Assembly (NCBI RefSeq): GCF_006974125.1
Contig: NZ_CP037858.1
Coordinates: 4,154,001 to 4,218,000, forward strand
Reading direction: 5' to 3'
Source: Stenotrophomonas maltophilia
GTDB taxonomy: Bacteria; Pseudomonadota; Gammaproteobacteria; Xanthomonadales; Xanthomonadaceae
Length of the DNA stretch: 64,000 bases
The translations under genes and the position numbers were made by a program. The notes under the pieces were generated by a model. That model was not told the origin of the DNA, did not search any database, and was given only the letters and a program-made list of their open reading frames with translations. How positions within the stretch are numbered: position 1 is the stretch's first letter; each line of letters opens with the position of its first letter. Below, one piece after another: positions 696 through 54,702 of the stretch.

Positions 696-1597
696 TTCTT
701 TCGTGTCCTTGCCATTGTCAGTACCACCACACCCAGAAGAATCACCGCCATGGCGAGGAAGTCCCGCCATCCAAAGCGTTCACCATTCAATGCAGCACCC
801 AGCAGCACGGCAATCACCGGATTGACGTACGCATAGCTGCCGGCCAGCGCCGGGCGCACGTTCTGCAACAGCCACACATAGGCGGTGAACGCGACGATGG
901 AACCGAACACGCACAGGTAGGCCATCGCCAGCAGGCCGCCGGCATCGGGCAGCGTGGTCGGGCGCTCGCCGACCGCCAGGCCGGTCAGCACCAGCAGCAC
1001 GCCACCGCAGATCATCTGCCCAGCGGCGGTCATGAACGGGCCCGGCAGGTCCAGGCCGCGTGACCACACCGAACCGAAGGCCCAGCCGATCGGCGCGATC
1101 AGCAGCAGCACCAGCCCGGTCGGTGAGGCGGTCAGGCTGCTGCCGGCATTGAGCCAGACCACGCCGGCAAAGCCGACCGCGATGCCCAGCCATTCACCCT
1201 TGCTGGCGTGCTGGCCGCGCAGCGCCGAGAACAGCGCCATCCACAGCGGCACCGAGGCCACCGCGGTGGCCGCCAGGCCCGAGGACACCTCACGCTCGGC
1301 CAGCACTACCATGCCGTTGCCCAGCACCAGCATGGTCACGCCCATCACCACCAGGTTGCGCCACTGCCGCAGGGTCGGGTTCGGCATCTTCCAGAACAGG
1401 CGCAAGGCCAGGAACATCAGGCCACCGGCAATGATGAACCGGCTGCCGGAAACCATCGTCAGCGGCAGCGCGCCACCGTGCAGGGCCTTGGCGATGCCCA
1501 GGTAGGTCGAGCCCCAGACCACATAGACCAGCAGCAATGCCAGCGCGACAAGGCCACCCCGGGGGGCAGCCGCAGACGAAGAAGGGGGAGCCGACAT
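692..1597 (-). CDS. yedA: EamA family transporter, YedA-like exporter
   Basis: A 301-residue inner-membrane protein with about ten hydrophobic helices in two EamA repeats. The sequence LVYVVWGSTYLGIAKALHGG near residues 18-37 and the conserved YVNPVIAVLLGA / GERFGWRDFLAMAVILLGVVVL end are typical of YedA-type drug/metabolite exporters. The real substrate cannot be read from sequence. It is the first gene of a two-gene operon with the RarD-like gene, overlapping it by ATGA. The MFS permease at 1821 is divergent. Confidence 0.85.
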   Translation of the reverse strand: MSAPPSSSAAAPRGGLVALALLLVYVVWGSTYLGIAKALHGGALPLTMVSGSRFIIAGGLMFLALRLFWKMPNPTLRQWRNLVVMGVTMLVLGNGMVVLAEREVSSGLAATAVASVPLWMALFSALRGQHASKGEWLGIAVGFAGVVWLNAGSSLTASPTGLVLLLIAPIGWAFGSVWSRGLDLPGPFMTAAGQMICGGVLLVLTGLAVGERPTTLPDAGGLLAMAYLCVFGSIVAFTAYVWLLQNVRPALAGSYAYVNPVIAVLLGAALNGERFGWRDFLAMAVILLGVVVLTMARTRKK

Positions 1598-1820
1598 GAC
1601 ACACCAGGGAGCCGGGGGAAGGCGGATTCTAGGACGTTTTGAGTATGGTCCGGGACCCCGGACGGTGGCACGCTGTCATCCATCCATGCACCCTGCTCTG
1701 GTCTGCTACCCCGTGTTGACGGCCGATGCAGTACCAAGAGGGCTGCCCGGCCGCGCCGCCCCAAGGCCGGGCGCCGTTTTCCCTGCGCACGGACGCGCCG
1801 CATCGAGGATTCCCACCCAG

Positions 1821-3155
1821 ATGAGCACCACGTCCCAACCTGCCGTACCCGCAAACGACCGCGCCGCCCTGCGGCGGTCGATCTCCAACACCCTCAAAGG
1901 CTCCGCCGGCAACCTGGTGGAGTGGTATGACGTCTACGTGTACTCGGTGTTCGCCGTGTACTTCGAATCGCAGTTCTTCTCGCCTGACGACAAGAACTCC
2001 ACCATGTACGTGTGGGCGATCTTCGCCGCGACCTTCCTGATGCGCCCGATCGGTGCCTGGTTCTTCGGCCGCTTCGCCGACCGCCACGGCCGCCGCCTGG
2101 CACTGACAGTCTCGGTCACGCTGATGGCGCTGTGCTCGTTCCTGATCGCCATCACCCCTACCGCCGCCAGCATCGGCATCTGGGCCGCCGTGATCCTGCT
2201 GTTCGCACGCCTGCTGCAGGGCTTCGCCACGGGCGGCGAGTACGGTGCCAGCGCCACCTACATGTCCGAGGCCGCCATTCCCGGCCGTCGCGGCTTCCTG
2301 TCTTCCTTCCACTACGTCACCCTGGTCGGCGGCCATGTGCTGGCCCAGCTGACCCTGCTGCTGATGCTGACCTTCTGGGGCAAGCCGGAGATCTCCGAGT
2401 GGGGCTGGCGCATCGCCTTCGGTATCGGTGGCATCGCCGCGGTGGTGGTGTTCTGGCTGCGCCGGGGCATGGACGAAACGATGGAAGAATCGTCGATCGA
2501 GGCCGCACGCGAGGGCAAGGCAAAGAAGTCCGGTTCGATGTACGAACTGTTCGTGCACCAGTGGCGTCCGCTGCTGCTGTGCTTCCTGATCACCGCCGGT
2601 GGCACCGTGGCCTTCTACACCTATTCGGTGAACGGCCCGAAGATGATCCAGAGCGCCTTCGCCGGCAACGACCCGATGACCGGCACCCTGATCAACCTGG
2701 GCGTGCTGGCGTTCCTGATGGTGCTGCAACCGGTGGGTGGCTGGCTGTCGGACATCATCGGCCGCAAGACTCTGCTGGTGTTCTTCGGCGTCGGCGGCGT
2801 GCTGTACAGCTGGTACCTGATCACCCAGCTGCCGCACCAGCATGACGCCACCCTGGCGTTCCTGACCCTGGCACTGGCCTTCGTCATCCTCACCGGCTAC
2901 ACCTCGATCAACGCGGTGGTGAAGGCCGAACTGTTCCCCACCCACGTGCGTGCACTGGGCGTGGGCCTGGGTTACGCACTGGCCAACTCGCTGTTCGGTG
3001 GCACCGCCCCGCTGCTGTACCAGGGCGCACTGAAGACCGGCCATGTCGACTGGTTCGCCATCTACGTCACCGCAACGATCGCGGTCTCGCTGGTGGTCTA
3101 CATCTTCTTCCTGACCAACAAGGGCCCGAACTGGCTCGACGGCACCCGCAAGTAA
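1821..3155 (+). CDS. MFS transporter of the metabolite:H+ symporter family (KgtP-like)
   Basis: A 444-residue, 12-helix inner-membrane symporter. The start region KGSAGNLVEWYDVYVYS (residues 26-42) and the loop 2-3 motif GRFADRHGRR (83-92) are signatures of the MHS family, which includes alpha-ketoglutarate permease KgtP and related dicarboxylate/osmolyte carriers. LPHQ..TLA and TSINAVVKAELFPTHVRALGVG in the C-terminal half also match this family. I place the start at ATG 1821 because the hydrophilic N-terminus then has the family's usual length; the frame is open 225 bases further upstream but that part is not protein-like. It stands alone. Confidence 0.88.
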   Translation: MSTTSQPAVPANDRAALRRSISNTLKGSAGNLVEWYDVYVYSVFAVYFESQFFSPDDKNSTMYVWAIFAATFLMRPIGAWFFGRFADRHGRRLALTVSVTLMALCSFLIAITPTAASIGIWAAVILLFARLLQGFATGGEYGASATYMSEAAIPGRRGFLSSFHYVTLVGGHVLAQLTLLLMLTFWGKPEISEWGWRIAFGIGGIAAVVVFWLRRGMDETMEESSIEAAREGKAKKSGSMYELFVHQWRPLLLCFLITAGGTVAFYTYSVNGPKMIQSAFAGNDPMTGTLINLGVLAFLMVLQPVGGWLSDIIGRKTLLVFFGVGGVLYSWYLITQLPHQHDATLAFLTLALAFVILTGYTSINAVVKAELFPTHVRALGVGLGYALANSLFGGTAPLLYQGALKTGHVDWFAIYVTATIAVSLVVYIFFLTNKGPNWLDGTRK

Positions 3156-3268
3156 GGGCGCTGCAGTGATCGCGGCCACCGGTGCAATGCCGGTGGCCGC
3201 TGCGTTTCCCGCCATCCCACGGATGTGGATCGCGGCAACGCTGGCCGCAGCCGAGCGGTAGTGCCCCG

Positions 3269-4930
3269 TCAGCGGCGGGCAGATTCGCTCTTGTCCCGCG
3301 TGCTGCGGAACTCCGATTCCTTTTCCCACGTCGGCCAGCGGCGGCTGTTGGCCAGCTCGGCACCGAGGTCGTAGACCAGCAGGGTGTCAGCGGCGTGGCC
3401 GCTCGGGTCCCAGCTCGGGGTCCAGGCATCGCAGGCCTGGTGGTAGCAGTCGGCGAAGTACTTCTCGCGCAGCGCGCGGCCGGCTTCAACACCGCCGTCC
3501 AGCTTGTCCAGGCCCGGGCCGATGGTGATCGCCGGCACGCCCAGACGGGCGAAGGCGAAGTGGTCGGCACGGTAGAAGAAGCCGGCCTCCAGGTTCGGGT
3601 CCGGGCTGTAGCTGCGGCCGCGGGCCTTGGCCACGCGTTCCAGATCGCCTTCCAGCGAGACCCGGCCCTTGCCCCACGAGGCGATGTCACGGGTCGCGCC
3701 ATCCGGGCTGAACATCTCGATGTTCAGCACCGCAGCGGTCTTGTCCAACGGCGCCAGCGGGTGCGCGGCGTAGTAGCTGGCGCCCAGCAGGCCCTTCTCT
3801 TCGGCGGTGAGGGCCACGAAGTACAGCGTGCGCTGCGGCTGCGGGCCGGCGGCGAATACGCGGCCCAGTTCCAGCACCGTGGCCACGCCGGTGGCGTTGT
3901 CGATCGCACCACGTCGGATGCGGTCGCCCTTGGCATCGGCCTGGCCGATACCGAACGCATCCCAGTGCGCGGAGAAGATCACGGCCTCGTCAGCATGTTC
4001 TCCACCGGGCAGCTTGGCCACCACGTTGCGGGTCACCACCTGCTCGCGCTTGAGCGCCAAATCCACGCTCAGCTTCGCGTTGTCCAGTGCCACCGGGCGG
4101 AAGTCGGCACGCATCGCCTTGCGCTTCTCGGCATCGAAGTCGAGGCCAGCGTCGGCGAAGATCGCCTCGGCCAGCTCGCGCTGCATCCAGCCGCGCAGCG
4201 GCGTGTGCTGGGCCATTGCTTCGGCCTGGCCGCGCTCGATGTCGAACAGCGGCGAGGTGCCCGAGCTCTTCACCGTGGCCCAGCCATACGCAGCCGGCGC
4301 GGTCTCGTGCACGATCAGCACGCCTTCGGCACCACGGCGTGCGGCTTCCTCGAATTTGTAGGTCCAGCGGCCGTAGTAGGTCACCGCCTTGCCATCGAAC
4401 GCGCCCGGTGTATCGGCCTCGAAATCGGCGTCATTGATCAGCACGACGGCGATCTTGCCGTGCAGGTCCACGTCCTTGTAGTCGTTCCAGTGGCGTTCCG
4501 GGGCGTCGATGCCATAGCCGACGAACACCAGCGGCGCATCCTTGATCTGCACGCGCTTGCGCGGCTGCAGGCTCTGCAGGGTCACGTCCACACCGTTGGC
4601 CAGCGCGCGCTTGCCCTGCTTCAGCGACAGGCTGGCCTTGGCCGCACCATCCAGCTGGGCGCGCACCAGCGGCACCGGCTGCACCCAGCTGCCGTCCACG
4701 CCGCCCGGTTGCAGGCCATAGCTGCGGAACTGCTCGATCAGGTACTGCACCGTGCGCTCTTCGCCCTCGGTGGCCGGCGCGCGGCCCTCGAATTCATCCG
4801 ACGCCAGTACACGCACGTGCCGCGACAGTGCCTGCGGATCGATGCCGCCACCCGGCAGGTCGTTGGCCGCATGGGCCAGGCCACCGACGAACAGGCAGGA
4901 CGACAGCAGCAACACGCGCATCGGATTCAC
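3269..4930 (-). CDS. Secreted M28 family zinc aminopeptidase with PA domain
   Basis: A 553-residue exported peptidase. Residues 1-21 form a signal peptide (hydrophobic LLLSSCLFVGGLAHAA). A protease-associated insert covers about residues 130-230 and the M28 catalytic domain about 300-520. Visible zinc ligands and catalytic residues are H322 and D324 (AHWDAFG), D344 (GAIDNATG) and E377/E378 (TAEEKGLLG). M28 enzymes remove N-terminal residues from peptides, so a periplasmic or extracellular peptide-scavenging role is likely. The start may be the second Met at 4921. It stands alone, between the permease and the MBL gene. Confidence 0.9.
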   Translation of the reverse strand: MNPMRVLLLSSCLFVGGLAHAANDLPGGGIDPQALSRHVRVLASDEFEGRAPATEGEERTVQYLIEQFRSYGLQPGGVDGSWVQPVPLVRAQLDGAAKASLSLKQGKRALANGVDVTLQSLQPRKRVQIKDAPLVFVGYGIDAPERHWNDYKDVDLHGKIAVVLINDADFEADTPGAFDGKAVTYYGRWTYKFEEAARRGAEGVLIVHETAPAAYGWATVKSSGTSPLFDIERGQAEAMAQHTPLRGWMQRELAEAIFADAGLDFDAEKRKAMRADFRPVALDNAKLSVDLALKREQVVTRNVVAKLPGGEHADEAVIFSAHWDAFGIGQADAKGDRIRRGAIDNATGVATVLELGRVFAAGPQPQRTLYFVALTAEEKGLLGASYYAAHPLAPLDKTAAVLNIEMFSPDGATRDIASWGKGRVSLEGDLERVAKARGRSYSPDPNLEAGFFYRADHFAFARLGVPAITIGPGLDKLDGGVEAGRALREKYFADCYHQACDAWTPSWDPSGHAADTLLVYDLGAELANSRRWPTWEKESEFRSTRDKSESARR

Positions 4931-11847: not shown

Positions 11848-12332
11848 GTCTGGTAGGGTGTTCTGGAAGCCCTGCCGGGGAAGTTAAGCCAGCTTTACTT
11901 CCTGGGCCATGAAGGGCCGTGCGACAGCAATGACGCACCAGGATTCATCGTTGGTTGCAGCCCCGCGCGAAATGTCGCTTCTGGCATTGCAATGCTCGAA
12001 ACGGGCCAAACGCGATAATTCATTTTTCCTTTCAGATCACCCGATGCCATCGAAACAATCGACTGGCAGACGGGGATTTCGCCTGCGCATGATGAATCGC
12101 CACCTGCAGAGGTGGCCGGGTCTTCCAAGCCCGTTTGATTGAAGCTGTATACGCTTGCCAGCCGGCGTCGTCCTCCCAGGAGCGGCGCCGGCTGGCAATT
12201 CGTTCGCCGGTCTACGGCGGGCGGTGCGTGGGGGCCCTGTGCCCGCCGGCTCATCGATCTCCGGTCTTGGAAGCCACGCATCGCCCGCCACCCTATCGTG
12301 GCGGCGCCTCTGTGCCTGACGAGGATGCCCGC
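11848..12332. other. Intergenic region with one hairpin, no convincing gene
   Basis: No frame here has a ribosome binding site plus protein-like composition. The only structure I see is a 13-bp inverted repeat with an 18-base loop at 12155-12198 (ttgccagccggcg and its complement). Confidence 0.6.
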
Positions 12333-31638: not shown

Positions 31639-32529
31639 TTACTGGTCGCTGGTGATCAGCTGCACGACGCTGGAGAAATCCAGCTTGCCGCGGCCGGCCT
31701 GGTGGTTCATCGAATACAGGTTGCGGGCCACTTCGCCCAGCGGGATCGAGGCACCGACACTCATCGCCGCTTCCACCGCCAGGCCCATGTCCTTCAGCAT
31801 CAGGTCGCTGCCGAAACCGCCGCTGTAGCCGCGCGACGCAGGCGCGTTCTCCAGCACGCCCGGCCACGGGTTGCACACTTCGGTGGCCCAGCTGCGGCCG
31901 GTGCTGACCGCCATCATCTGCGACAGCACCTTCGGGTCCAGCCCGTGCGCCACGCCGAGCGCGATGGCTTCGCCGGTCACCGCCATGATCACGCCCAGCG
32001 CCATGTTGTTGCACAGCTTGGCAACCTGGCCGGCACCACTGGCGCCCACGTGGAAGATGTTCTTGCCCATCGCCTGCAGCACCGGGCGCGCGCGTTCCAG
32101 CGCGTCCTTTTCACCACCGACGATGAAGGTCAGGGTGCCGGCCTGGGCACCGGCGGTACCGCCGGACACCGGCGCGTCGATCATCTGCAGGCCACGCGCG
32201 GCCGCGGCTTCGGAAACCTTGCGCGCGCTCGCCGGGGCAATGGTGCTGCAGTCGATGACCAGTGCACCGGCCGGAATCGCGGCGAGGATGCCGTCATCGC
32301 CCAGGTACACGCCTTCGACATGGCGGCTGGCCGGCAGCATCGAGATCACCACTTCGGCGTCGGCCAGGGTTTCACGCGCCGACGCAGCCGCGCTGGCGCC
32401 GGCATCGACGGCCGCCTGCACCGCGGCCGGGACCAGATCGAACACGCGCACGGTGTGGCCGTTCTTGACCAGATTGGCGGCCATCGGGCCACCCATGTTG
32501 CCCAACCCAATGAATGCAATGCGGCTCAT
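31639..32529 (-). CDS. mmsB: 3-hydroxyisobutyrate dehydrogenase
   Basis: A 296-residue NAD+-dependent enzyme that oxidises 3-hydroxyisobutyrate to methylmalonate semialdehyde in valine degradation. The Rossmann motif is GLGNMGGPMA (8-17), the substrate-binding signature APVSGGTAGAQAGTL lies near residue 118, and the catalytic Lys is in GAGQVAKLCNNM. It is the last gene of the operon and overlaps the hydrolase gene by ATGA. The next step, by MmsA, is encoded by the first gene. Confidence 0.94.
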   Translation of the reverse strand: MSRIAFIGLGNMGGPMAANLVKNGHTVRVFDLVPAAVQAAVDAGASAAASARETLADAEVVISMLPASRHVEGVYLGDDGILAAIPAGALVIDCSTIAPASARKVSEAAAARGLQMIDAPVSGGTAGAQAGTLTFIVGGEKDALERARPVLQAMGKNIFHVGASGAGQVAKLCNNMALGVIMAVTGEAIALGVAHGLDPKVLSQMMAVSTGRSWATEVCNPWPGVLENAPASRGYSGGFGSDLMLKDMGLAVEAAMSVGASIPLGEVARNLYSMNHQAGRGKLDFSSVVQLITSDQ

Positions 32530-33701
32530 GCCAGGCTCCTTTCAGCGACGGGGGTGCCCAGGTCGGCCAGCGGATGCGCGGCATCGGCCCAGGGCGAAGC
32601 GAAGAACGTATCGGCCCACTCGGCGGTGGCCTCGGCCAGCGTGGCCGGGTTCCACTGCGGGTTGCGGTCCTTGTCGATCAGCAGCGCGCGGATGCCTTCG
32701 GCGAAATCGCCGTGGGCGGCGCAGTGCAGCGCGGTGATGTACTCCAGCCGGTAGACGCTGGCCAGGTCCTGGCCGGCGCTGCGGCGCTGCAGTTCGAAGG
32801 CCAGCCGCGCCGAGCCGGGCGCACCGGCGGCGAGGGTCTTCTGTGCGGCCTGCAGCCAGGCATCGTCGGTCTGCAGGCCGGCAATGCGCGCCACGATGGC
32901 CTGCAGGTCATCGCCTTCGCACAGCGCCTCGACCTGCGCCGCATGGGCCAGCAACGGGCCGGTGGCGGCGTCGCTGGCGTGCGACTGCAGCAGATGGGTC
33001 AGGCGTTCGTGGTTGTGTGCGGCATCGCCCGACCAGGCCACCTGCAGCAGCGCGTCGAACACCGCGCTGCGGCGTTCTTCGGTCACGTGCACATCGGCCA
33101 GGCCGGCATAGATGGCATCGCCCGGGTTGAGCAGTGCGCCGGTCAGGGCCAGGAACAGGCCGCCCTTGCCCGGCACGCGCGGCAGCAGCCAGCTGCCACC
33201 GACATCGGGGAACAGGCCAACGGTGATTTCCGGGAAGGCCAGCTTGGAACGTTCGCTGACCACGCGGTGGCTGGCACCGGACATCAGGCCGATGCCGCCG
33301 CCCATCACGATGCCGTGACCCCAGCACAGGATCGGCTTGGCGTAGGTGTGGATGAGGTAGTCGACGCGGTACTCGACGTCGAAGAACTCCGCTGCGTAGT
33401 CGTTCTCGCGGATGTCGCGGCGGCCATCTTCGCGGAAGGCAACCATGCTCTTGTACAGGCTGTGCAGGTCACCGCCGGCACAGAATGCTTTTTCACCGGC
33501 GCCCTGCAGCACCACCATGGCGATGCCGTCGTCGTCGGCCCAGGCATTCAACTGCTTCAGCAGCAGGTGTGCCATCGGCAGCGAGAAACCGTTGAGCGTA
33601 CGCGGCGCGTTGAGCGTTGCGATGCCGATGCGCGCGCCGTTGCCGGCCACGCGCTCTTCGAACAGCACCGGTGCGTCGTCGGCAGCGGTGTCGGTGCTCA
33701 T
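32526..33701 (-). CDS. 3-hydroxyisobutyryl-CoA hydrolase (enoyl-CoA hydratase fold)
   Basis: A 391-residue crotonase-superfamily protein. The oxyanion-hole segments KAFCAGGDLHSLY and HGIVMGGGIGLMSG, and FPEITVGLFPDVGGSWLLPR, match HIBYL-CoA hydrolase, which is longer than hydratases (about 260 residues). It removes CoA from 3-hydroxyisobutyryl-CoA in valine breakdown. ATG 33701 overlaps the upstream stop codon (ATGA), which fixes the start better than the frame to 33713. Confidence 0.9.
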   Translation of the reverse strand: MSTDTAADDAPVLFEERVAGNGARIGIATLNAPRTLNGFSLPMAHLLLKQLNAWADDDGIAMVVLQGAGEKAFCAGGDLHSLYKSMVAFREDGRRDIRENDYAAEFFDVEYRVDYLIHTYAKPILCWGHGIVMGGGIGLMSGASHRVVSERSKLAFPEITVGLFPDVGGSWLLPRVPGKGGLFLALTGALLNPGDAIYAGLADVHVTEERRSAVFDALLQVAWSGDAAHNHERLTHLLQSHASDAATGPLLAHAAQVEALCEGDDLQAIVARIAGLQTDDAWLQAAQKTLAAGAPGSARLAFELQRRSAGQDLASVYRLEYITALHCAAHGDFAEGIRALLIDKDRNPQWNPATLAEATAEWADTFFASPWADAAHPLADLGTPVAERSLA

Positions 33702-34495
33702 GCGTTCTTCCACTGCGCGGCGCGCTTTTCCAGGAAGGCAGTCACGCCCTCGACCTGGTCGGCGGTGTCGAACAGGTCGACGAAGGCTTCACGCTCGGCC
33801 ACCAGTGCCGAGGCGTGGGTGCCGGTGCGGGTGGACTGCACCAGGGTCTTGCAGGCGGCGATGCTGGTCGGGCTCTGCTTGCCGGCCTTCTTCGCCCATT
33901 CCAGGGCCAGTGCCTTGGCTTCGCCCTTGCCGACCTTTTCTTCGGCCAGGCCAATGCGCAGCGCGGTCTCGGCGTTGATGCGCTCACCCAGCAGGATCAT
34001 GCGCTTGGCCCAGCCCTCACCGACCAGGCGCGGCAGGTTCTGGGTGCCACCGGCGCACGGCAGCAGGCCGACGGTGGCCTCCGGCAGCGCGACCTGGGCA
34101 TGGTCTTCGATGATCCGCAGGTCGCAGGCCAGTGCGCATTCCAGGCCACCGCCCATGGCGTAGCCGTTGATCGCAGCGATCGACACGCCACGGAAAGCGG
34201 ACAGCGCTTCGAAGGCTTCACCGAAGCGGCGTGCGGCTTCACGTGCAGCGGCCTTGTCGCCGGAGGCGAACTGGTTGAGGTCGGCACCGGCGGAGAAGAA
34301 CTTCTCGCCGTCACCGGTGATCACCAGCGCGTAGATCTCGCGGTCCGCGTTGAGCGCGCCCACCAGGTCGCGCAGCGCCGACAGGCTGTGCACGGTCCAG
34401 GTGTGCGCCGGCGGGTTGTGCAGGGTGACTACGGCGGTGTGGCCATCGACCTCGACCTTCAGACCCACGTGCTCCTGGGTACGCCAATCCTTCAT
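33698..34495 (-). CDS. Enoyl-CoA hydratase
   Basis: A 265-residue crotonase. The two oxyanion-hole motifs are KFFSAGADLNQFA and AINGYAMGGGLECALACD, and the catalytic Glu region is PEATVGLLPCAGGTQNLPR. In this operon it should hydrate methacrylyl-CoA to 3-hydroxyisobutyryl-CoA. The ATG at 34495 overlaps the acyl-CoA dehydrogenase stop, and the stop overlaps the hydrolase start, both by four bases. Confidence 0.9.
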   Translation of the reverse strand: MKDWRTQEHVGLKVEVDGHTAVVTLHNPPAHTWTVHSLSALRDLVGALNADREIYALVITGDGEKFFSAGADLNQFASGDKAAAREAARRFGEAFEALSAFRGVSIAAINGYAMGGGLECALACDLRIIEDHAQVALPEATVGLLPCAGGTQNLPRLVGEGWAKRMILLGERINAETALRIGLAEEKVGKGEAKALALEWAKKAGKQSPTSIAACKTLVQSTRTGTHASALVAEREAFVDLFDTADQVEGVTAFLEKRAAQWKNA

Positions 34496-35658
34496 CGCAG
34501 TTCCTCTTCGGTGTTGAGCAGGTGGCGGGCAACGATCACCCGCATGATCTCGTTGGTGCCTTCCAGGATCTGGTGCACGCGGCTGTCGCGCAGCAGGCGC
34601 TCGATCGGGTATTCGCGGATGTAGCCGTAGCCACCGTGGATCTGCAGCGCTTCGTTGCAGATCTTGAAGCCGGCATCGGTGGCGAAGCGCTTGGCCATCG
34701 CGCACCACACGTTGGCATCGCTGGCACCGGCGTCGAGCTTGCGCGCGGCCGAATGCACCATCTGCCGCGCGGCGACCAGTTCGATGGCCATGTCGGCCAG
34801 CTTGAACTGCAGCGCCTGGAATTCGGCCAGCGCCTTGCCGAACTGGCGGCGCTCGCCCATGTAGCGGCGTGCGGCATCCAGCGCGCCCTGCGCGGCACCC
34901 AGCGAGCAGGCAGCGATGTTGATGCGGCCGCCGTCCAGCCCCTTCATCGCCAGCTTGAAGCCGCCGCCTTCCTCTCCCAGAAGGTGGCTGACCGGCACGC
35001 GGACGTTTTCGAAGGTGATGCCGCGGGTGGGCTGGCTGTTCCAGCCCATCTTCTCTTCCTTGCGGCCGAAGCTGATGCCCGGCAGGTCCGACGGCACTGC
35101 AATGGCGCTGACACCACCGGCACCGGCACCGCCGGTACGTGCCATCACCACCAGCAGCTCGGTGGCACCGGCACCGGAGATGAAGGCCTTGGAGCCGTTC
35201 AGCACATAGAAATCGCCATCGCGCACGGCGGTGGTCTTCAGCGAGGCCGCATCGGAACCGGCACCCGGTTCGGTCAGGCAGTACGAGGCCAGCTTGTTGC
35301 CCGAGGACAGGTCAGTGCCCCACGCATCGCGCAGTGCCGGCTGGCCCCACTTGGACACCATCCACGAGGCCATGTTGTGGATGCTGATGTACGCCGCGGT
35401 CGACGGATCGACGTTGGCGAGCTCCTCGATGACGACGGCGGCGTCCAGTCGGCTCAGGCCGCTGCCGCCCACTTCCGGGTCCATGTACAGACCGCAGAAG
35501 CCCAGTTCACCGGCCTTGGCGATCGCCTCGCGCGGAAAGATGCCCTCCGCATCCCATCGCGCGGCGTGCGGCGCCAGTTCGGCCAGTGCGAAGTCGCGCG
35601 CCGCCTCGCGGTACGCCTGCTGTGCTTCGTCCAGTTCCGTCGTCATCGAGTGGCTCAT
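34492..35658 (-). CDS. Acyl-CoA dehydrogenase, probably isobutyryl-CoA dehydrogenase
   Basis: A 388-residue FAD flavoprotein. The acyl-CoA dehydrogenase signatures are CLTEPGAGSDAASLKTTA and QIHGGYGYIREYPIERLLRD, ending ILEGTNEIMRVIVAR, where the Glu is the usual catalytic base. Placement between mmsA and the hydratase implies isobutyryl-CoA or a short branched-chain acyl-CoA as substrate. It starts 14 bases after mmsA. Specificity is inferred from the operon. Confidence 0.9.
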   Translation of the reverse strand: MSHSMTTELDEAQQAYREAARDFALAELAPHAARWDAEGIFPREAIAKAGELGFCGLYMDPEVGGSGLSRLDAAVVIEELANVDPSTAAYISIHNMASWMVSKWGQPALRDAWGTDLSSGNKLASYCLTEPGAGSDAASLKTTAVRDGDFYVLNGSKAFISGAGATELLVVMARTGGAGAGGVSAIAVPSDLPGISFGRKEEKMGWNSQPTRGITFENVRVPVSHLLGEEGGGFKLAMKGLDGGRINIAACSLGAAQGALDAARRYMGERRQFGKALAEFQALQFKLADMAIELVAARQMVHSAARKLDAGASDANVWCAMAKRFATDAGFKICNEALQIHGGYGYIREYPIERLLRDSRVHQILEGTNEIMRVIVARHLLNTEEELR

Positions 35659-35672
35659 GGCTGCTCCTGCCG

Positions 35673-37178
35673 TTACTTCAGGCTGATCGTGGTGTTGACG
35701 CCGTGGCTCAGCGTCTCGTCATCGAACCAGCGTGCGGTGACCGTCTTGGTCTGGGTGTAGAACAGCACCACCTGCTTGCCGTACGGGCCCAGGTCGCCCA
35801 GCTTGGACGCGCGCGAGCCGGTGAACGAGAACAGCGGCACCGGCACCGGGATCGGCACGTTGATGCCGACCTGGCCGACGTCGATGTCTTCCTGGAACCT
35901 GCGCGCAGCCGCGCCGGACTGGGTGAACAGTGCGGTGCCGTTGCCGTTCGGGTTGCTGTTGACCATCGCAATGGCCTCTTCCAGCGTTTCCGCTTCGAGG
36001 ATGACCAGCACCGGTCCGAAGATTTCTTCCTGGTAGATGCGCATGTCGGTGGTGACACCCGCAAAGATGGTCGGGCCGACGAAGTTGCCCTTCTCGAAAC
36101 CATCCACCTGCGGCTTGCGGCCATCCAGCACCAGCTTGGCGCCCTGCTCCACGCCCGAGGCGATCAGGCCTTCCACGCGCTCGCGGGCGCTGCAGGAAAT
36201 GACCGGACCGACGTCGGTGCCGGACACGGTACCGCCGCTGACCTTGAGGGTCTTGGCCTTGGCCACCAGGTCCTGCACCCAGTTGCGTGCTTCACCGACC
36301 AGCACCAGCGTGGAGGCGGCCATGCAGCGCTGGCCCGCCGCACCGAAGGCGGCGCCGACCATCGCGTTGAGGGTCTGTTCCTTGTTGGCGTCCGGCAGCA
36401 CCACGGCGTGGTTCTTGGCGCCCATCATGCACTGCACGCGCTTGCCGGCCAGCGAGGCACGGTTGTAGACGTGGGTGCCGACGCGGGTGGAACCGACGAA
36501 CGACACAGCCTTGATGTCCGGGTGGTCGCAGATCGCGTTGACCACTTCCTCGCCACCATGGACGACGTTCAGCACGCCCTTCGGAATGCCGGCTTCCAGC
36601 GCCAGTTCGACCAGGCGCATGGTCACCATCGGGTCCTGCTCGGACGGCTTGAGGATGAAGGTGTTGCCGGTGGCAATGGCCATCGGGAACATCCACAGCG
36701 GGATCATCGCCGGGAAGTTGAACGGGGTGATGCCGGCGCACACGCCCAGCGGCTGCATGATCGTGTAGGTATCCACGCCATTGGCCACGTTGTTGGCCAG
36801 CTCGCCCAGCTGCAGGTTGCCGATGGCGGCAGCGTGCTCGACCACTTCCAGGCCGCGGAACACATCGCCTTCGGCATCCGGCAGGGTCTTGCCCTGTTCG
36901 GCGGTAAGGATATGGGCCAGCTCGCTCATGTTCTCGCGGATCAGCTGCTGGTACTTCAGGAAGATGCGCGCGCGGGTGCCGATCGGGGTCTTGCGCCAGG
37001 TCTTGAAAGCTTCCTTGGCGGCGGCGACGGCGGCGTCCACTTCGCCGGTGGTGGCGAACGGCACCTTGGCCAGCACGTCCTGGGTGGCCGGATTGATCAC
37101 GTCCTGCCAGTGGGAGGTGGCCGATTCGATGAACTGGCCATCGATCAGCATGCGGATACGGGGCGCTGCAACAGTCAT
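35673..37178 (-). CDS. mmsA: CoA-acylating methylmalonate-semialdehyde dehydrogenase
   Basis: A 501-residue aldehyde dehydrogenase that converts methylmalonate semialdehyde to propionyl-CoA, the final step of valine catabolism; it can also act on malonate semialdehyde. The catalytic Cys is in [15 protein letters not shown] (near residue 285), and [20 protein letters not shown] and [12 protein letters not shown] are family hallmarks. ATG 37178 is chosen over 37214. It heads the five-gene operon and is divergent from the regulator at 37293. Confidence 0.94.
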
Positions 37179-42216: not shown

Positions 42217-43170
42217 TCAACGCTGCTGCGGACAGAGCGCCACGCGCTTGCTGCCCGCATCGATCAGCACCGCCGCGTCCTGCAGTGCGTGCGCGCCGAT
42301 CACCGCCTCCGGGTAGTGATCAGAGACGCGCACGTCGAGATTGCGAAGCGTCAGGCCACCGACCACCAGCGGCACGTCCAGCCGTGCCCGGCCGCTCTGG
42401 ATCCGGCCGTGGCTGAGGGCCAGTGGTTCGCCCGCGACAACCGTGCCGCTGGCTGCACGCTCATGGAGTGCAGCAGGCAGCACCAGCGCCACGTTTGCGC
42501 CGGTATCCAACTGTGCTTCGGTCGTAACCGTGCCGATCTGCACCGGAATGCGGAAGGCCCGCGTGTAGGCCAGCGTACCCGGCTGCCCCGGCAGCAATCG
42601 ATGGTCGCGGCGAAAGCGCAGCCGCTTGCGTGGGAAGTCGAGCACCAGCAGGCCATCGTCGAAGAAATCGCGCGCCAGGATCCCATCGAAGGCGGCGGCC
42701 TCGGACTGTCGGGCGTTGTAGTCGCGGGTGATCGCCACCACGTCCTGGCGGCGCACGCCACCAAGGGCGAGCGCATCGAAGCGGACCGTAGCGGCATCGG
42801 CGGTGCGCACGCCATCGGAATGAGAGGCGGTGCCCCCCATTGGCAGATTCAGCGCGCGCACCAGGCGGGTATCGGCACGTGCCACACCACTCGCACCGGT
42901 ATCGACGGCGAAGCGGAACGTACCTGCGTCATTGACCTGCACCTGCAGGTAGATGCGCCCATCGACAACCTCGAACGGAACATCGATGACGGTTTCACCG
43001 GGCGCAGTGGCCAATGCACATGCCGGGCCAGGTGAAGGCAGTGCATGGGCCCATCCGGAAAGGCAGAGCAGCCCCATCGCCCATACGGGCAGGCAGCGCC
43101 GCCTGGCACGGGTCGGGGCAGTTGGATGCCCGGTGCGGGCGTGTGGGGGCGTTGCGGCAAGACTGTCCAT
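42217..43170 (-). CDS. Exported aspartyl protease family protein
   Basis: A 317-residue protein with two retropepsin-like motifs, FAVDTGASG (Asp90) and AQLDTGANV (Asp near 221), each followed by a beta-rich lobe and IGAHALQDAAVLID near the end. Both lobes in one chain suggest an internally duplicated, monomeric aspartyl protease. A hydrophobic segment (LPVWAMGLLCLSGWAHA, 27-43) preceded by Arg residues looks like a signal peptide; Met32 (43077) is another possible start. The substrate is unknown. Confidence 0.78.
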   Translation of the reverse strand: MDSLAATPPHARTGHPTAPTRARRRCLPVWAMGLLCLSGWAHALPSPGPACALATAPGETVIDVPFEVVDGRIYLQVQVNDAGTFRFAVDTGASGVARADTRLVRALNLPMGGTASHSDGVRTADAATVRFDALALGGVRRQDVVAITRDYNARQSEAAAFDGILARDFFDDGLLVLDFPRKRLRFRRDHRLLPGQPGTLAYTRAFRIPVQIGTVTTEAQLDTGANVALVLPAALHERAASGTVVAGEPLALSHGRIQSGRARLDVPLVVGGLTLRNLDVRVSDHYPEAVIGAHALQDAAVLIDAGSKRVALCPQQR

Positions 43171-43284
43171 GGGCAGGGTTCCAAGCGGTCCTGCAGCATG
43201 GATGCGCCACGGGCCCGCACGGTTGCACCCTGCGGACCTTGACCATCGCCGCCAACGGGTCCACCGTGCACACGCCGAAGGTAT
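43171..43284. other. Upstream region of the riboswitch
   Basis: The gap between the divergent aspartyl protease gene and the cobalamin aptamer. It must hold the promoter of the queH transcript, but I see no clear -35/-10 pair. Confidence 0.4.
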
Positions 43285-43480
43285 CCTTCCCGACGTTTCG
43301 ATAACGGGATGGATTTAAACGGGAATCCGGTGAAGGCGCCTCGCGCGCCCATTCCGGAGCTGCCCCGCAGCGGTGAATGGAAACGAATCCTGCCAACAGC
43401 ACTGGGCACATGCCTGGGAAGCGGCAGGTAGTAGGTGGGCTGCGGCCCGTGTCCATCAGCCCGAATACCGGCCACGGCCG
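43285..43480 (+). ncRNA. Cobalamin (AdoCbl) riboswitch
   Basis: The conserved blocks are in order: aaacgggaatccggtga (43317 on), ccggagctgccccgcagcggtga (43354 on), cactgg, cctgggaagcggcagg with agtagg, and the B12 box region cagcccgaataccggcc (43457-43473). The edges are approximate. A GC-rich hairpin followed by Ts at about 43563-43584 could be the expression platform. Genes downstream of such riboswitches are switched off when cobalamin is high. The next gene is queH. Confidence 0.92.
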
Positions 43481-43667
43481 GGGGACACGACCGTCCCCTG
43501 ATTCGACCTGGACTCTCCGCGGGGAGGGTGCCGGGGCCGCCGTTGTCCTGCGCGTGCAGGCAGCGCGGCCGCGCGCGTCCTTTTCACGGTATCCGGCCCG
43601 CCCTGTTCCACCCACGCGCTGATGCATGGGCCACCGTCGCTGCCGGCGGTCCATGCGGTACCTGACG

Positions 43668-44339
43668 ATGACCGATCTCCAACGCCCCACCCTGACCCTG
43701 CCCGCCGACGGCAAGCGCCTGCTGCTGCATTCGTGCTGCGCGCCCTGTTCGGGCGAAGTGATGGAGGCGATCACCGCCTCCGGGATCGACTACGCGATCT
43801 TCTTCTACAACCCCAACATCCACCCGGTGAAGGAGTACGAGCTGCGCAAGCAGGAGAACATCCGCTTCGCCGAGCAGCACGGCATTCCCTTCATCGATTG
43901 CGACTACGACACCGACAACTGGTTCAGCCGTGCGCGTGGCATGGAGAACGAGCCCGAGCGCGGTATCCGCTGCACGATGTGCTTCGACATGCGTTTCGAG
44001 CGCACCGCGCTGTACGCGCATGAACACGGCTACGACACCATCAGCTCGTCGCTGGGCATCTCGCGCTGGAAGAACATGACGCAGATCAACGACTGCGGCA
44101 TCCGCGCCGCATCGCGCTATGAAGGCCTGCAGTACTGGGACTACAACTGGCGCAAGGGTGGCGGTGCCAGCCGCATGATCGAGATCAGCAAGCGCGAGCA
44201 GTTCTACCAGCAGGAATACTGCGGCTGCGTGTACTCGCTGCGCGATGCCAACCGCCATCGCCGCGAGAACGGCCGGGAGCGGATCAAGATCGGCCTGCTG
44301 TACTACGGGCAGGACGCTGAGACGCCGCAGGGCGATTGA
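43668..44339 (+). CDS. queH: Epoxyqueuosine reductase QueH, under a B12 riboswitch
   Basis: A 223-residue enzyme for the last step of queuosine synthesis in tRNA, the reduction of epoxyqueuosine. The QueH/DUF208 cysteine sites are present: [10 protein letters not shown] (C23, C24), RCTMCFDMR (C102, C105) and YCGCVYS. ATG 43668 begins near the conserved [10 protein letters not shown]; earlier in-frame ATGs lie at 43626 and 43653. QueH does not use cobalamin, while QueG does, so control by a B12 riboswitch would spare QueH when B12 is plentiful. Confidence 0.92.
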
Positions 44340-44395
44340 CCTGCGCCGCCGGGGCGGCCACGCTGGTCGCCCCCTTGTGATGTAGTGGATCTGCC

Positions 44396-45022
44396 ATGAC
44401 CGCCCTGCCCGCCGATGTCGCCCTGCTGGTGATCGACCTGCAGCCGGACTTCATGCCCGGTGGCGCGCTGGCCTGCGACCAGGGCGATGCGCTGGTGGCA
44501 CCGATTGCCGGACTGCTGGCACAGCGCCGCTACCGCACGGTGGTGGCCACCCAGGACTGGCACCCGGCCGGCCACGCCTCCTTCGCCAGCCAGCACCCCG
44601 GCAAGCGTCCGTTCGAGACCATCCTGCTGCACGCGCAGCCGCAGACGCTGTGGCCCGACCATTGCGTGCAGGGCAGCGATGGCGCCGCGCTGCACCCGGG
44701 CTTGGACTGGACCGTGGCCGACCTGATCCTGCGCAAGGGCACGCGCCAACAGGTGGATTCGTACAGCGCCTTCCGCGAGAACCACGGCCCCGATGGCGAG
44801 CGCCCGGCCACCGGCCTGGCCGGCTGGCTGCACGAGCGCCGCATCCGCGAAGTGCACGTGTGCGGCCTGGCCCGCGACTACTGCGTGCTGTGGAGCGCGC
44901 AGGACGCGGTGAAGTCTGGCTTCCGGGTGAAGTTCCTGTGGGAGCTGACCAAGCCGGTGACCGAGGCCAACGACGCAATGGTGCGCGAGGCGCTGGGGAA
45001 GGCGGGAATCGCGATCATCTGA
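44396..45022 (+). CDS. pncA: Nicotinamidase
   Basis: A 208-residue isochorismatase-fold hydrolase that converts nicotinamide to nicotinate for NAD recycling. The catalytic triad is D14 (VIDLQPDF), K114 (LILRKGT) and C163 (GLARDYCVLWS), and metal ligands are D54, H56 and H60 (QDWHPAGHASF). It lies 56 bases after queH on the same strand and may share its transcript. Confidence 0.94.
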   Translation: MTALPADVALLVIDLQPDFMPGGALACDQGDALVAPIAGLLAQRRYRTVVATQDWHPAGHASFASQHPGKRPFETILLHAQPQTLWPDHCVQGSDGAALHPGLDWTVADLILRKGTRQQVDSYSAFRENHGPDGERPATGLAGWLHERRIREVHVCGLARDYCVLWSAQDAVKSGFRVKFLWELTKPVTEANDAMVREALGKAGIAII

Positions 45023-52115: not shown

Positions 52116-54518
52116 TTACTGGCAGGCCTCGCAGGCTTCCGGGTTTTCCAGCGAGCAGGCGATGGCTTCGTCCGGGCTGAACACCTTGGCCGGGGCTGCG
52201 CTGCTCACCGTGGTCTTGGCGATCTTGGTGGCCGGGCGCGAACGCAGGTAGTAGGTGGTCTTGATGCCCTGCTTCCAGGCGTACATGTACATGGAAGACA
52301 TCGCGCCGATGTTCGGGCTTTCCATGAACAGGTTGAGCGAGGCCGACTGGTCGATGAAGGCGCCACGCTCGGCGGCCATGTCGATCAGCGAGCGCATCGG
52401 CAGTTCCCACGCGGTGCGGTAGACCTCGCGCAGCGTTTCCGGAATCTGCGCCACGCCGGCGATGGAACCTTCGGCCAGCTTGATGGCATCGCGCATGTCG
52501 GCGGTCCACAGGCCCAGCTTCTTCAGCTCGTTCACCAGGTAGCGGTTGACCTGCAGGAAGTCACCGGACAGGGTCTCGCGCTTGAACAGGTTGGACACCT
52601 GCGGCTCGACGCACTCGTAGCAGCCGGCGATCGAGGCGATGGTCGCGGTCGGGGCGATCGCGATCATCAGCGAGTTGCGCAGGCCGTGTTCCTTGATGCG
52701 CTCACGCAGGGCATCCCAGCGTGCGGTGTCTTCCGGCACCACGTTCCAGGCGTCGAACTGCAGTTCACCACCGGCGGCACGGGTGTCGTTGAACGACGGG
52801 TGCTTGCCACGTTCCTGGGCCAGCTCGCAGGAGGTTTCCAGCGCGTGGAAGTAGATCGCTTCGGCAATCTTCTTCGACAGGGCGCGGGCTTCGGCGCTGT
52901 CGAACGGCAGGCGCTTGCGGAAGAACACGTCCTGCAGGCCCATGCAGCCCAGGCCGACCGGACGCCAGCGCAGGTTGGCGCGGCGGGCGGTTTCGATCGG
53001 GTAGAAGTTCAGGTCGATGACGCGGTCGAGCTGGCGCACGGCCAGGCGCACGGTCTCGGCCAGCTTCTCGAAGTCGAACTCGTTGTGCTCGTCGAAGTGG
53101 TTGCCCAGGTTGATCGAACCCAGGTTGCACACGGCGGTTTCATCGTTGGAAGTGACTTCCAGGATTTCGGTGCACAGGTTGGACAGGTGGATCACGTTGC
53201 CCGGACGCAGGGTCTGGTTGCTGGCGCGGTTGCACTTGTCCTTGAAGGTCATCCAGCCGTTGCCGGTCTCGGCCAGCGTACGCATCATGCGGGCATACAG
53301 CTTGCGCGCGGAGATGGTGCGGTTGGCCTTGCCCTGGGCTTCGGCCTGCAGGTAGGCGGCCTCGAAGGCTTCGCCGAACAGGTCGGTGAACTCCGGCACG
53401 ACGCGCGGATCGAACAGCGACCATTCCTGGTCGGCTTCGACGCGCTTCATGAACAGGTCCGGCACCCAGTTGGCCAGGTTCAGGTTGTGCGCACGGCGGG
53501 CTTCGTCACCGGTGTTGTCACGCAGCTCGAGGAAGTCCTCGATGTCGGCATGCCAGGTTTCCAGGTACACGCAGGCCGCGCCCTTGCGCTTGCCGCCCTG
53601 GTTCACCGCGGCCACGGACGAATCCATGGTCTTCAGCCACGGCACGATGCCGTTGGAGTGGCCGTTGGTCGACTTGATCAGCGAACCACGCGAGCGCACG
53701 CGGGTGTAGCTGACGCCGATGCCGCCGGAGAACTTCGACAGCTGGGCGATATCGCCGTACTTGGAATAGATCGACTCCAGCGAGTCCTGCGGCGAGTCCA
53801 GCAGGAAGCACGAGGACAGCTGCTCGTGGGTGGTGCCGGAATTGAACAGGGTCGGGCTGGACGGCAGGTAGTCCAGGTTGCCCATGCGCTTGTACAGCGC
53901 CAGGGTCTCGGACACGTCCTCGCTCAGCGCGCTGGCGATGCGCAGGAAGAACTGCTGCGGGGTCTCGATCACCTTGCGGGTGTGCGGGTGGCGCAGCAGG
54001 TAACGGTCGTACAGGGTACGCAGGCCGAAGTAATCGAAGTTCAGGTCCAGCGAGATGTCGATGGCATCGTTGAGCTTGCGCGCGTTGGTCTGCACGAAGT
54101 TCAACAGGCGGTCGTTGATCAGGCCGACTTCATGGCCACGGCTGACCGACTGCGAGAACGCGTAGATTTCCTGGCCCGAGACTTCCTTGGCGATGTAGTT
54201 GGCCAGCAGGCGCGCAGCCAGGCGGCCGTACTCGGGCTCTTCACCGATCAGCAGGGCGGCGGTGCGGATGGACAGTTCGTCCAGCTCGCGGGTGGTGGCG
54301 CCGTTGTACAGGCCGGAAATGGTGCGGGTGGCCACGCGCATCGGATCGACAGCGTGCAGGCCTTCGGAGGAACGCTGCACCGCGCGCACGATCTTGTTCA
54401 GGTCCACCAGTTCGGTCGTGCCATTGCGCTTGGTCACACTCATCGCGTTGGCCGTCGGCGGCGACGTCAACAGGAATTCGCTTTCCTTCTCGATGGTGGC
54501 GCTGGATTCGGTGGTCAC
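52116..54518 (-). CDS. nrdA: Ribonucleoside-diphosphate reductase alpha subunit, class Ia
   Basis: An 800-residue R1 subunit that reduces ribonucleotides for DNA synthesis. It has an N-terminal ATP-cone (about 30-120), the active-site region SSCFLLDSPQDSLESIY, the catalytic NLCTEI loop (Asn, Cys, Glu), FYPIETARRANLRWRPVGLG, and a C-terminal CEACQ pair for re-reduction by thioredoxin. The GTG start at 54518 has AGAGGA upstream; ATG 54560 is an alternative. The upstream region has NrdR-like boxes. Confidence 0.95.
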   Translation of the reverse strand: MTTESSATIEKESEFLLTSPPTANAMSVTKRNGTTELVDLNKIVRAVQRSSEGLHAVDPMRVATRTISGLYNGATTRELDELSIRTAALLIGEEPEYGRLAARLLANYIAKEVSGQEIYAFSQSVSRGHEVGLINDRLLNFVQTNARKLNDAIDISLDLNFDYFGLRTLYDRYLLRHPHTRKVIETPQQFFLRIASALSEDVSETLALYKRMGNLDYLPSSPTLFNSGTTHEQLSSCFLLDSPQDSLESIYSKYGDIAQLSKFSGGIGVSYTRVRSRGSLIKSTNGHSNGIVPWLKTMDSSVAAVNQGGKRKGAACVYLETWHADIEDFLELRDNTGDEARRAHNLNLANWVPDLFMKRVEADQEWSLFDPRVVPEFTDLFGEAFEAAYLQAEAQGKANRTISARKLYARMMRTLAETGNGWMTFKDKCNRASNQTLRPGNVIHLSNLCTEILEVTSNDETAVCNLGSINLGNHFDEHNEFDFEKLAETVRLAVRQLDRVIDLNFYPIETARRANLRWRPVGLGCMGLQDVFFRKRLPFDSAEARALSKKIAEAIYFHALETSCELAQERGKHPSFNDTRAAGGELQFDAWNVVPEDTARWDALRERIKEHGLRNSLMIAIAPTATIASIAGCYECVEPQVSNLFKRETLSGDFLQVNRYLVNELKKLGLWTADMRDAIKLAEGSIAGVAQIPETLREVYRTAWELPMRSLIDMAAERGAFIDQSASLNLFMESPNIGAMSSMYMYAWKQGIKTTYYLRSRPATKIAKTTVSSAAPAKVFSPDEAIACSLENPEACEACQ

Positions 54519-54702
54519 GGCGGGTGTCCTCTTGGCGTGATTGGTGGGTGCTCGATGCATCGGGTGACGCAGCCCGGGACATGACAGCCCAGGATGGCAG
54601 GACGGCGTCGCAGGGGATGAGACCCTGCGCCTGCCACTGCCGTTGACGATCGCGGATGGGTACCCCGGGCACCCCTGGAATTGGGGTTGCTGCGACCGAC
54701 GG

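Follow-up and report, generated by a model that had tools for sequence, protein, structure and literature searches.

A cobalamin riboswitch ahead of queH in Stenotrophomonas maltophilia, probably governing a choice between two queuosine enzymes

Why should a cobalamin (B12) riboswitch stand ahead of a gene whose product can do without cobalamin? The QueH family carries out epoxyqueuosine reduction without cobalamin, and in a stretch of 64,000 nucleotides of the Stenotrophomonas maltophilia genome, the whole of which is called the window here, queH follows such an RNA directly. The features of the locus are as follows.

43276..43490, plus strand: cobalamin riboswitch aptamer (RF00174), 91.5 bits; pi of the core 0.028 (39 genomes)
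43479..43500, plus strand: first conserved hairpin behind the aptamer, 8 pairs, loop ACGACC
43508..43534, plus strand: second conserved hairpin, loop GCGG, GGGGAGG on the 3' side
43604..43620, plus strand: junction where metE is missing, 17 nt versus 2420 nt in the sister-genome stretch L290 (blastn)
43668..44339, plus strand: queH, epoxyqueuosine reductase family QueH, PF02677 218.5 bits (cut-off 23.5)
44396..45022, plus strand: pncA, nicotinamidase family, NF008623 181 bits (cut-off 174)

The original prediction had placed an AdoCbl riboswitch ahead of queH, and the check with the Rfam model has borne this out: RF00174 matches in full length at 43276-43490 (+) with 91.5 bits (cut-off 31.5, E 2.3e-21, model positions 1-189 of 189), and this is the sole riboswitch reaching the Rfam cut-off within the 64-kb window. 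Our own covariance model R1, which has 31 rows, gives 134.4 bits at 43314-43476 and 10.6 bits or less at any other site of the window; because the window sequence is among the rows used for training, only this contrast within the window counts. The whole 4.55-Mb genome has two RF00174 matches, and the second copy (C1:2639418-2639640, minus strand) lies upstream of btuB, encoding the TonB-dependent B12 receptor, on the same strand; this btuB is cut by the end of the locus and obtains 462.2 bits with TIGR01779, below the full-length cut-off of 599.7. Another structured RNA, the C4 antisense RNA (RF01695), is found at 12210-12295 (+) of the window with 58.5 bits (cut-off 45).

The aptamer is situated on the same strand (+) in the predicted 5' leader of queH, 177 nt upstream, so that the predicted order of the two elements stands while their distance, given earlier as about 190 bases, is revised. 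The likely start of queH is ATG 43668 and not the upstream in-frame ATG 43626, because the former is conserved in 39 of 39 leaders of the metE-less form described below, the short ones included. The gap of 56 nt between queH and pncA is as predicted, and from this spacing on one strand pncA may share a transcript with queH. We have detected pncA also in 52 of 52 other Stenotrophomonas genomes searched; of the 39 genomes with the metE-less form, only the window was checked for pncA behind queH.

According to the available part of PMC5372724, QueH replaces QueG, and the prediction that a queG should be present elsewhere in the same genome was confirmed by a genome search: a full queG is found at C1:1008129-1009139 (TIGR00276, 497.3 bits, cut-off 200), which carries the QueG_DUF1730 domain too. 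The riboswitch therefore stands ahead of the predicted B12-free member of the pair, and the predicted B12-using member is encoded in the same genome. As for methionine synthesis, a metH profile match exceeds its cut-off, and no full-length metE was found in the window genome. The best TIGR01371 match there (111.6 bits, model positions 404-754 of 754) was rejected as metE, the gene being a short methionine synthase of the PRK09121 type (703.1 bits) that adjoins mesX (PF08908, 603.6 bits). This mesX-mesD pair (L196:526-2577) represents another B12-free methionine route. Among 91 genomes of the genus, metH matches are found in 89 and queG likewise in 89, its absences being in G559 and G579, of which the latter assembly is 76% complete; 63 of the 64 genus genomes with queH in a riboswitch operon also hold queG, and the exception is a 76% complete assembly.

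On the basis of these sequences, we consider it quite probable that the intact aptamer binds AdoCbl and lowers queH expression, perhaps together with that of pncA, when B12 is plentiful. Queuosine would then be made by the predicted B12-using QueG, and under B12 shortage this step would fall to QueH, the predicted B12-free enzyme. By analogy with metE, repression of queH by AdoCbl is the most likely direction, and the part of the leader remaining in the window would suffice to act on queH.

The analogy with metE is more literal than the original prediction, which had proposed a logic of the metE/metH type, could know, because the same riboswitch heads metE in sister genomes. Among the 91 genus genomes, 39 have the riboswitch-queH form, the riboswitch being less than 180 nt upstream of queH; 25 have the order riboswitch-metE-queH-pncA (in one of these, L292, the riboswitch is interrupted by a contig end); and 12 have riboswitch-metE-pncA and lack queH anywhere in the genome. 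One further genome (L305) has the riboswitch and metE remnants. In the other 14, the riboswitch, metE and queH are all absent directly before pncA, when searched with R1 and with the metE and queH proteins; L311 among these has a metE end about 3.7 kb away, and the stretches L313 and L322 are shortened. For the 52 genomes other than the 39, up to 4.2 kb upstream of pncA was searched. Altogether queH is found in 67 of the 91, and 64 of these genes are inside the riboswitch operon; the remaining three are a partial match in G525 and, judged by eye from ORF lists, genes behind mmsB-like genes in G556 (L078) and G559 (L092). The two genomes with this mmsB-like arrangement show no metH match (G556) and no queG match (G559), respectively. 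In a stretch of G029, a genus member without queH, that is syntenic with the window, the order is riboswitch, metE, pncA and purU (purU assigned by eye).

The site where the two forms part can be located precisely with the aid of L290. Window positions 43233-43603 align with L290 636-1006 at 88.4% identity and positions 43621-43760 with L290 3427-3566 at 92.1% (blastn), and metE of L290 spans 1113-3398. Since only 17 nt replace 2420 nt, metE is wholly missing from the window together with 106 nt of its leader, and queH thus comes directly behind the switch that is metE's in L290. We infer that the metE-less form has arisen through loss of metE and not through gain of metE elsewhere. In the queH tree, the 39 genomes fall within a clade of 40 that includes one metE-bearing genome (support 0.81, with weak inner support), which is compatible with a single metE loss without proving one.

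The main rival explanation starts from this very loss: the riboswitch may be a relic of metE control without effect on queH, its expression platform having gone with metE and queH having signals of its own. What speaks for it is that the missing segment, metE and the roughly 106 nt of leader ahead of the L290 metE start, contains in metE-bearing genomes, as judged by eye, two hairpins that are missing in the window, one placed around the ribosome-binding site of metE and the other likewise conserved. A strongly conserved hairpin of the metE leader, TTCGCCC-GCG-GGGGCGAA, is seen at about 1000-1110 of L290 and in other metE leaders, and is missing in the window. No Rfam family exceeded its cut-off for this hairpin (cmscan, E up to 1, L290 600-1160), and the idea that the metE leader houses a second RNA of a known family was rejected because cmscan gave RF00174 and one match far below cut-off.

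A relic should drift, however, and in the 39 genomes it is the flanks that vary, the core of the aptamer and the first hairpin being nearly constant. In these metE-less genomes, pi falls from 0.376 upstream of the riboswitch to 0.236 in its 5' outer part and to 0.028 in the aptamer core. It amounts to 0.020 for the first hairpin and to 0.050 for the linker with the second hairpin, then rises to 0.133 over the remaining leader before reaching 0.061 immediately ahead of queH; third codon positions of queH itself show 0.140, and its first and second ones 0.019. The value for the core lies far below those for queH third positions and for the upstream region, which indicates that the aptamer is still under selection. 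Thus, on sequence grounds, constraint on the riboswitch RNA persists in the form that has queH in first place. Of 44 columns invariant in the model alignment, two vary among the 39. R1 scores in the metE-less form (123.9-137.0) are as high as in the metE-bearing form, which also counts against a relic. We therefore regard this explanation as unlikely.

Pairing has been examined separately for the aptamer and the hairpins behind it. In the 39 metE-less leaders, 96.2% of the cells of the aptamer pairing are paired and no pair has changed on both sides, there being too little variation. For the hairpins, the alignment comprised 62 leaders out of 75 from the two forms, after removal of near-duplicates and of a single shortened leader, and had 43 distinct rows. 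In the first hairpin, 100% of cells are paired and both-side changes occur at 4 of 8 pairs, all of them coming from metE-bearing rows; in the second, 94.9% of cells are paired, with a both-side change at 1 of 11 pairs. An intrinsic terminator was also considered as the switch, the region having two terminator-like sites where shuffled sequence has 0.4, and was rejected: 12 or more of the 39 genomes have a broken T run behind the stem at 43563-43576 (+), so that this stem is no shared platform. Neither a shared terminator nor another expression platform for queH was identified in the leaders compared. A scan of 43100-44500 gave no match to a sigma-70-type promoter, and such scans tell little here.

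We have also investigated the arrangement of queH in 149 genomes sampled from the family (Xanthomonadaceae), where queG occurs in 143 and queH in 14. The riboswitch lies directly upstream of queH in four of the 14, and in G001 a B12-independent methionine synthase of the PRK06520 type (415.2 bits) stands between the two, in the order riboswitch, methionine synthase, queH. Five others have the riboswitch about 5.7 kb upstream of queH on the same strand; in one of these, G048, the queH match is split in two pieces. In L060, belonging to the same five, the genes between run from mmsA to mmsB (methylmalonate-semialdehyde dehydrogenase, acyl-CoA dehydrogenase, enoyl-CoA hydratase, 3-hydroxyisobutyryl-CoA hydrolase and 3-hydroxyisobutyrate dehydrogenase), and queH follows. 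The cobalamin riboswitch thus heads a valine-pathway operon ending in queH (L060:1869-8438), and it is similarly distant in L052, L055, L059 and L061. Other genera of the family also have queH as the last gene of operons led by this kind of riboswitch. By analogy, enzymes of these types could form a B12-free propionate shunt; no literature on a propionate shunt with a riboswitch was found. The window has its own valine-pathway cluster at about 31654-36354 (-), some 7 kb from queH, without a riboswitch.

G017 and G092 have both queH and queG (the queG match of G092 in two pieces) and show no riboswitch in the fetched stretch; their queH has a metR-like gene beside it and a mesX/mesD pair nearby, the profiles having been run on G017 only, where MetR obtains 220.5 bits, below the cut-off of 382. 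G018 lacks queG, and the one RF00174 in its 11-kb stretch is downstream of queH, ahead of a btuB-like gene. A contig end truncates the queH stretch of G030. In a further 48 stretches of the family that carry the riboswitch, it precedes the gene for the ribonucleotide reductase large subunit (27), btuB (17), metE (2), mmsA (1) or an unassigned gene (1); the genes behind family riboswitches are uptake genes and enzymes having B12-dependent counterparts. The window nrdA at 52119-54623 (-), with 85.8% identity to the G029 nrdA in tblastn, has no riboswitch ahead, while the G029 nrdA does have one (L064:2378-2595), and this comparison suggests that the window genome has lost the switch of its ribonucleotide reductase.

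Of 369 genomes sampled from the class, 58 have queH and five of these have full queG too (G000, G071, G370, G438 and G482), as counted by eye and with G390 (E 8.8e-14) left out. RF00174 was found in none of 56 queH loci outside the family, within the fetched stretches, several of which are shortened by contig ends; G370, G438 and G482, with both enzymes, show no riboswitch in the fetched stretch either, and three AdoCbl-II matches lie about 5.7 kb from queH loci on the opposite strand. The link of queH to the riboswitch is confined to the Xanthomonadaceae in the samples examined, a contrast that follows family lines and is therefore not treated as a statistical test. Among the best 80 of 585 named QueH loci, R1 is strong in 20 (18 Stenotrophomonas, one [Pseudomonas] hibiscicola and one Bacillus by title), and RF00174 occurs in none of 20 loci tested from the other 60; because these loci carry 3 kb or less upstream, an operon head 5-6 kb off would be missed. 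The record titled Bacillus subtilis (L210, JAHREJ010000013.1) has a Stenotrophomonas-type riboswitch and queH, and looks mislabelled.

Since 53 of the 58 class genomes with queH lack full queG, having both enzymes is unusual, and it may be asked whether QueH here, although regulated by B12, serves another substrate or purpose and is no stand-in for QueG. Against this, the window protein is an ordinary QueH by its PF02677 profile, and G018 and G559 have queH without full queG, as if QueH alone sufficed; we hold this explanation to be very improbable. The reverse direction, in which B12 would raise queH, is scarcely credible, because the same kind of riboswitch precedes metE, btuB and nrdA in the family and repression is the logic stated for such genes, isozymes included, in the available parts of PMC9600662 and PMC3766115.

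Repression of queH by B12 would resemble known systems and differ from each of them, as far as the available parts of the papers describe these. The control of metE where metH is present (PMC9600662) has the same riboswitch class and a B12-free enzyme with a B12-using counterpart, and sister genomes carry metE at the very site of the window queH; unlike in that system, the first gene here belongs to tRNA modification and metE is absent. The case also fits the category of isozymes of B12-dependent enzymes in cobalamin riboswitch regulons (PMC3766115), although queH was not found among the members named there, supplements aside. Queuosine synthesis or salvage is likewise under riboswitch control through preQ1 riboswitches (PMC5372724), but these read a precursor of the pathway, whereas what the queH switch would sense is the cofactor needed by the competing enzyme. 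The link is absent from the available parts of PMC11071462, PMC6461909 (a survey that leaves QueH out), PMC9600662, PMC6593275, PMC10570037, PMC5372724, PMC3766115 and PMC12452182, and a literature search, with supplements and RegPrecise outside its scope, found no report tying queH to a cobalamin riboswitch.

A wider reading can be put forward tentatively. The riboswitch may have switched its target in the Stenotrophomonas maltophilia group when metE was lost from a B12-run metE-queH operon, making queuosine synthesis the enzyme choice that B12 is read for; throughout the family, B12-free stand-ins (metE, queH and, as a possible shunt, the Lysobacter-like valine/propionate pathway) may be bundled behind one kind of B12 switch, which would tie tRNA wobble modification to vitamin supply. 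These genomes would then constitute a natural series in which a riboswitch came to precede a new first gene. A swap by vitamin supply, like that of MetH and MetE, could explain the retention of both QueG and QueH in some bacteria for one and the same step. If this is true, the wobble modification of tRNA is tied to B12, with the prediction that queuosine stays and the enzyme making it changes.
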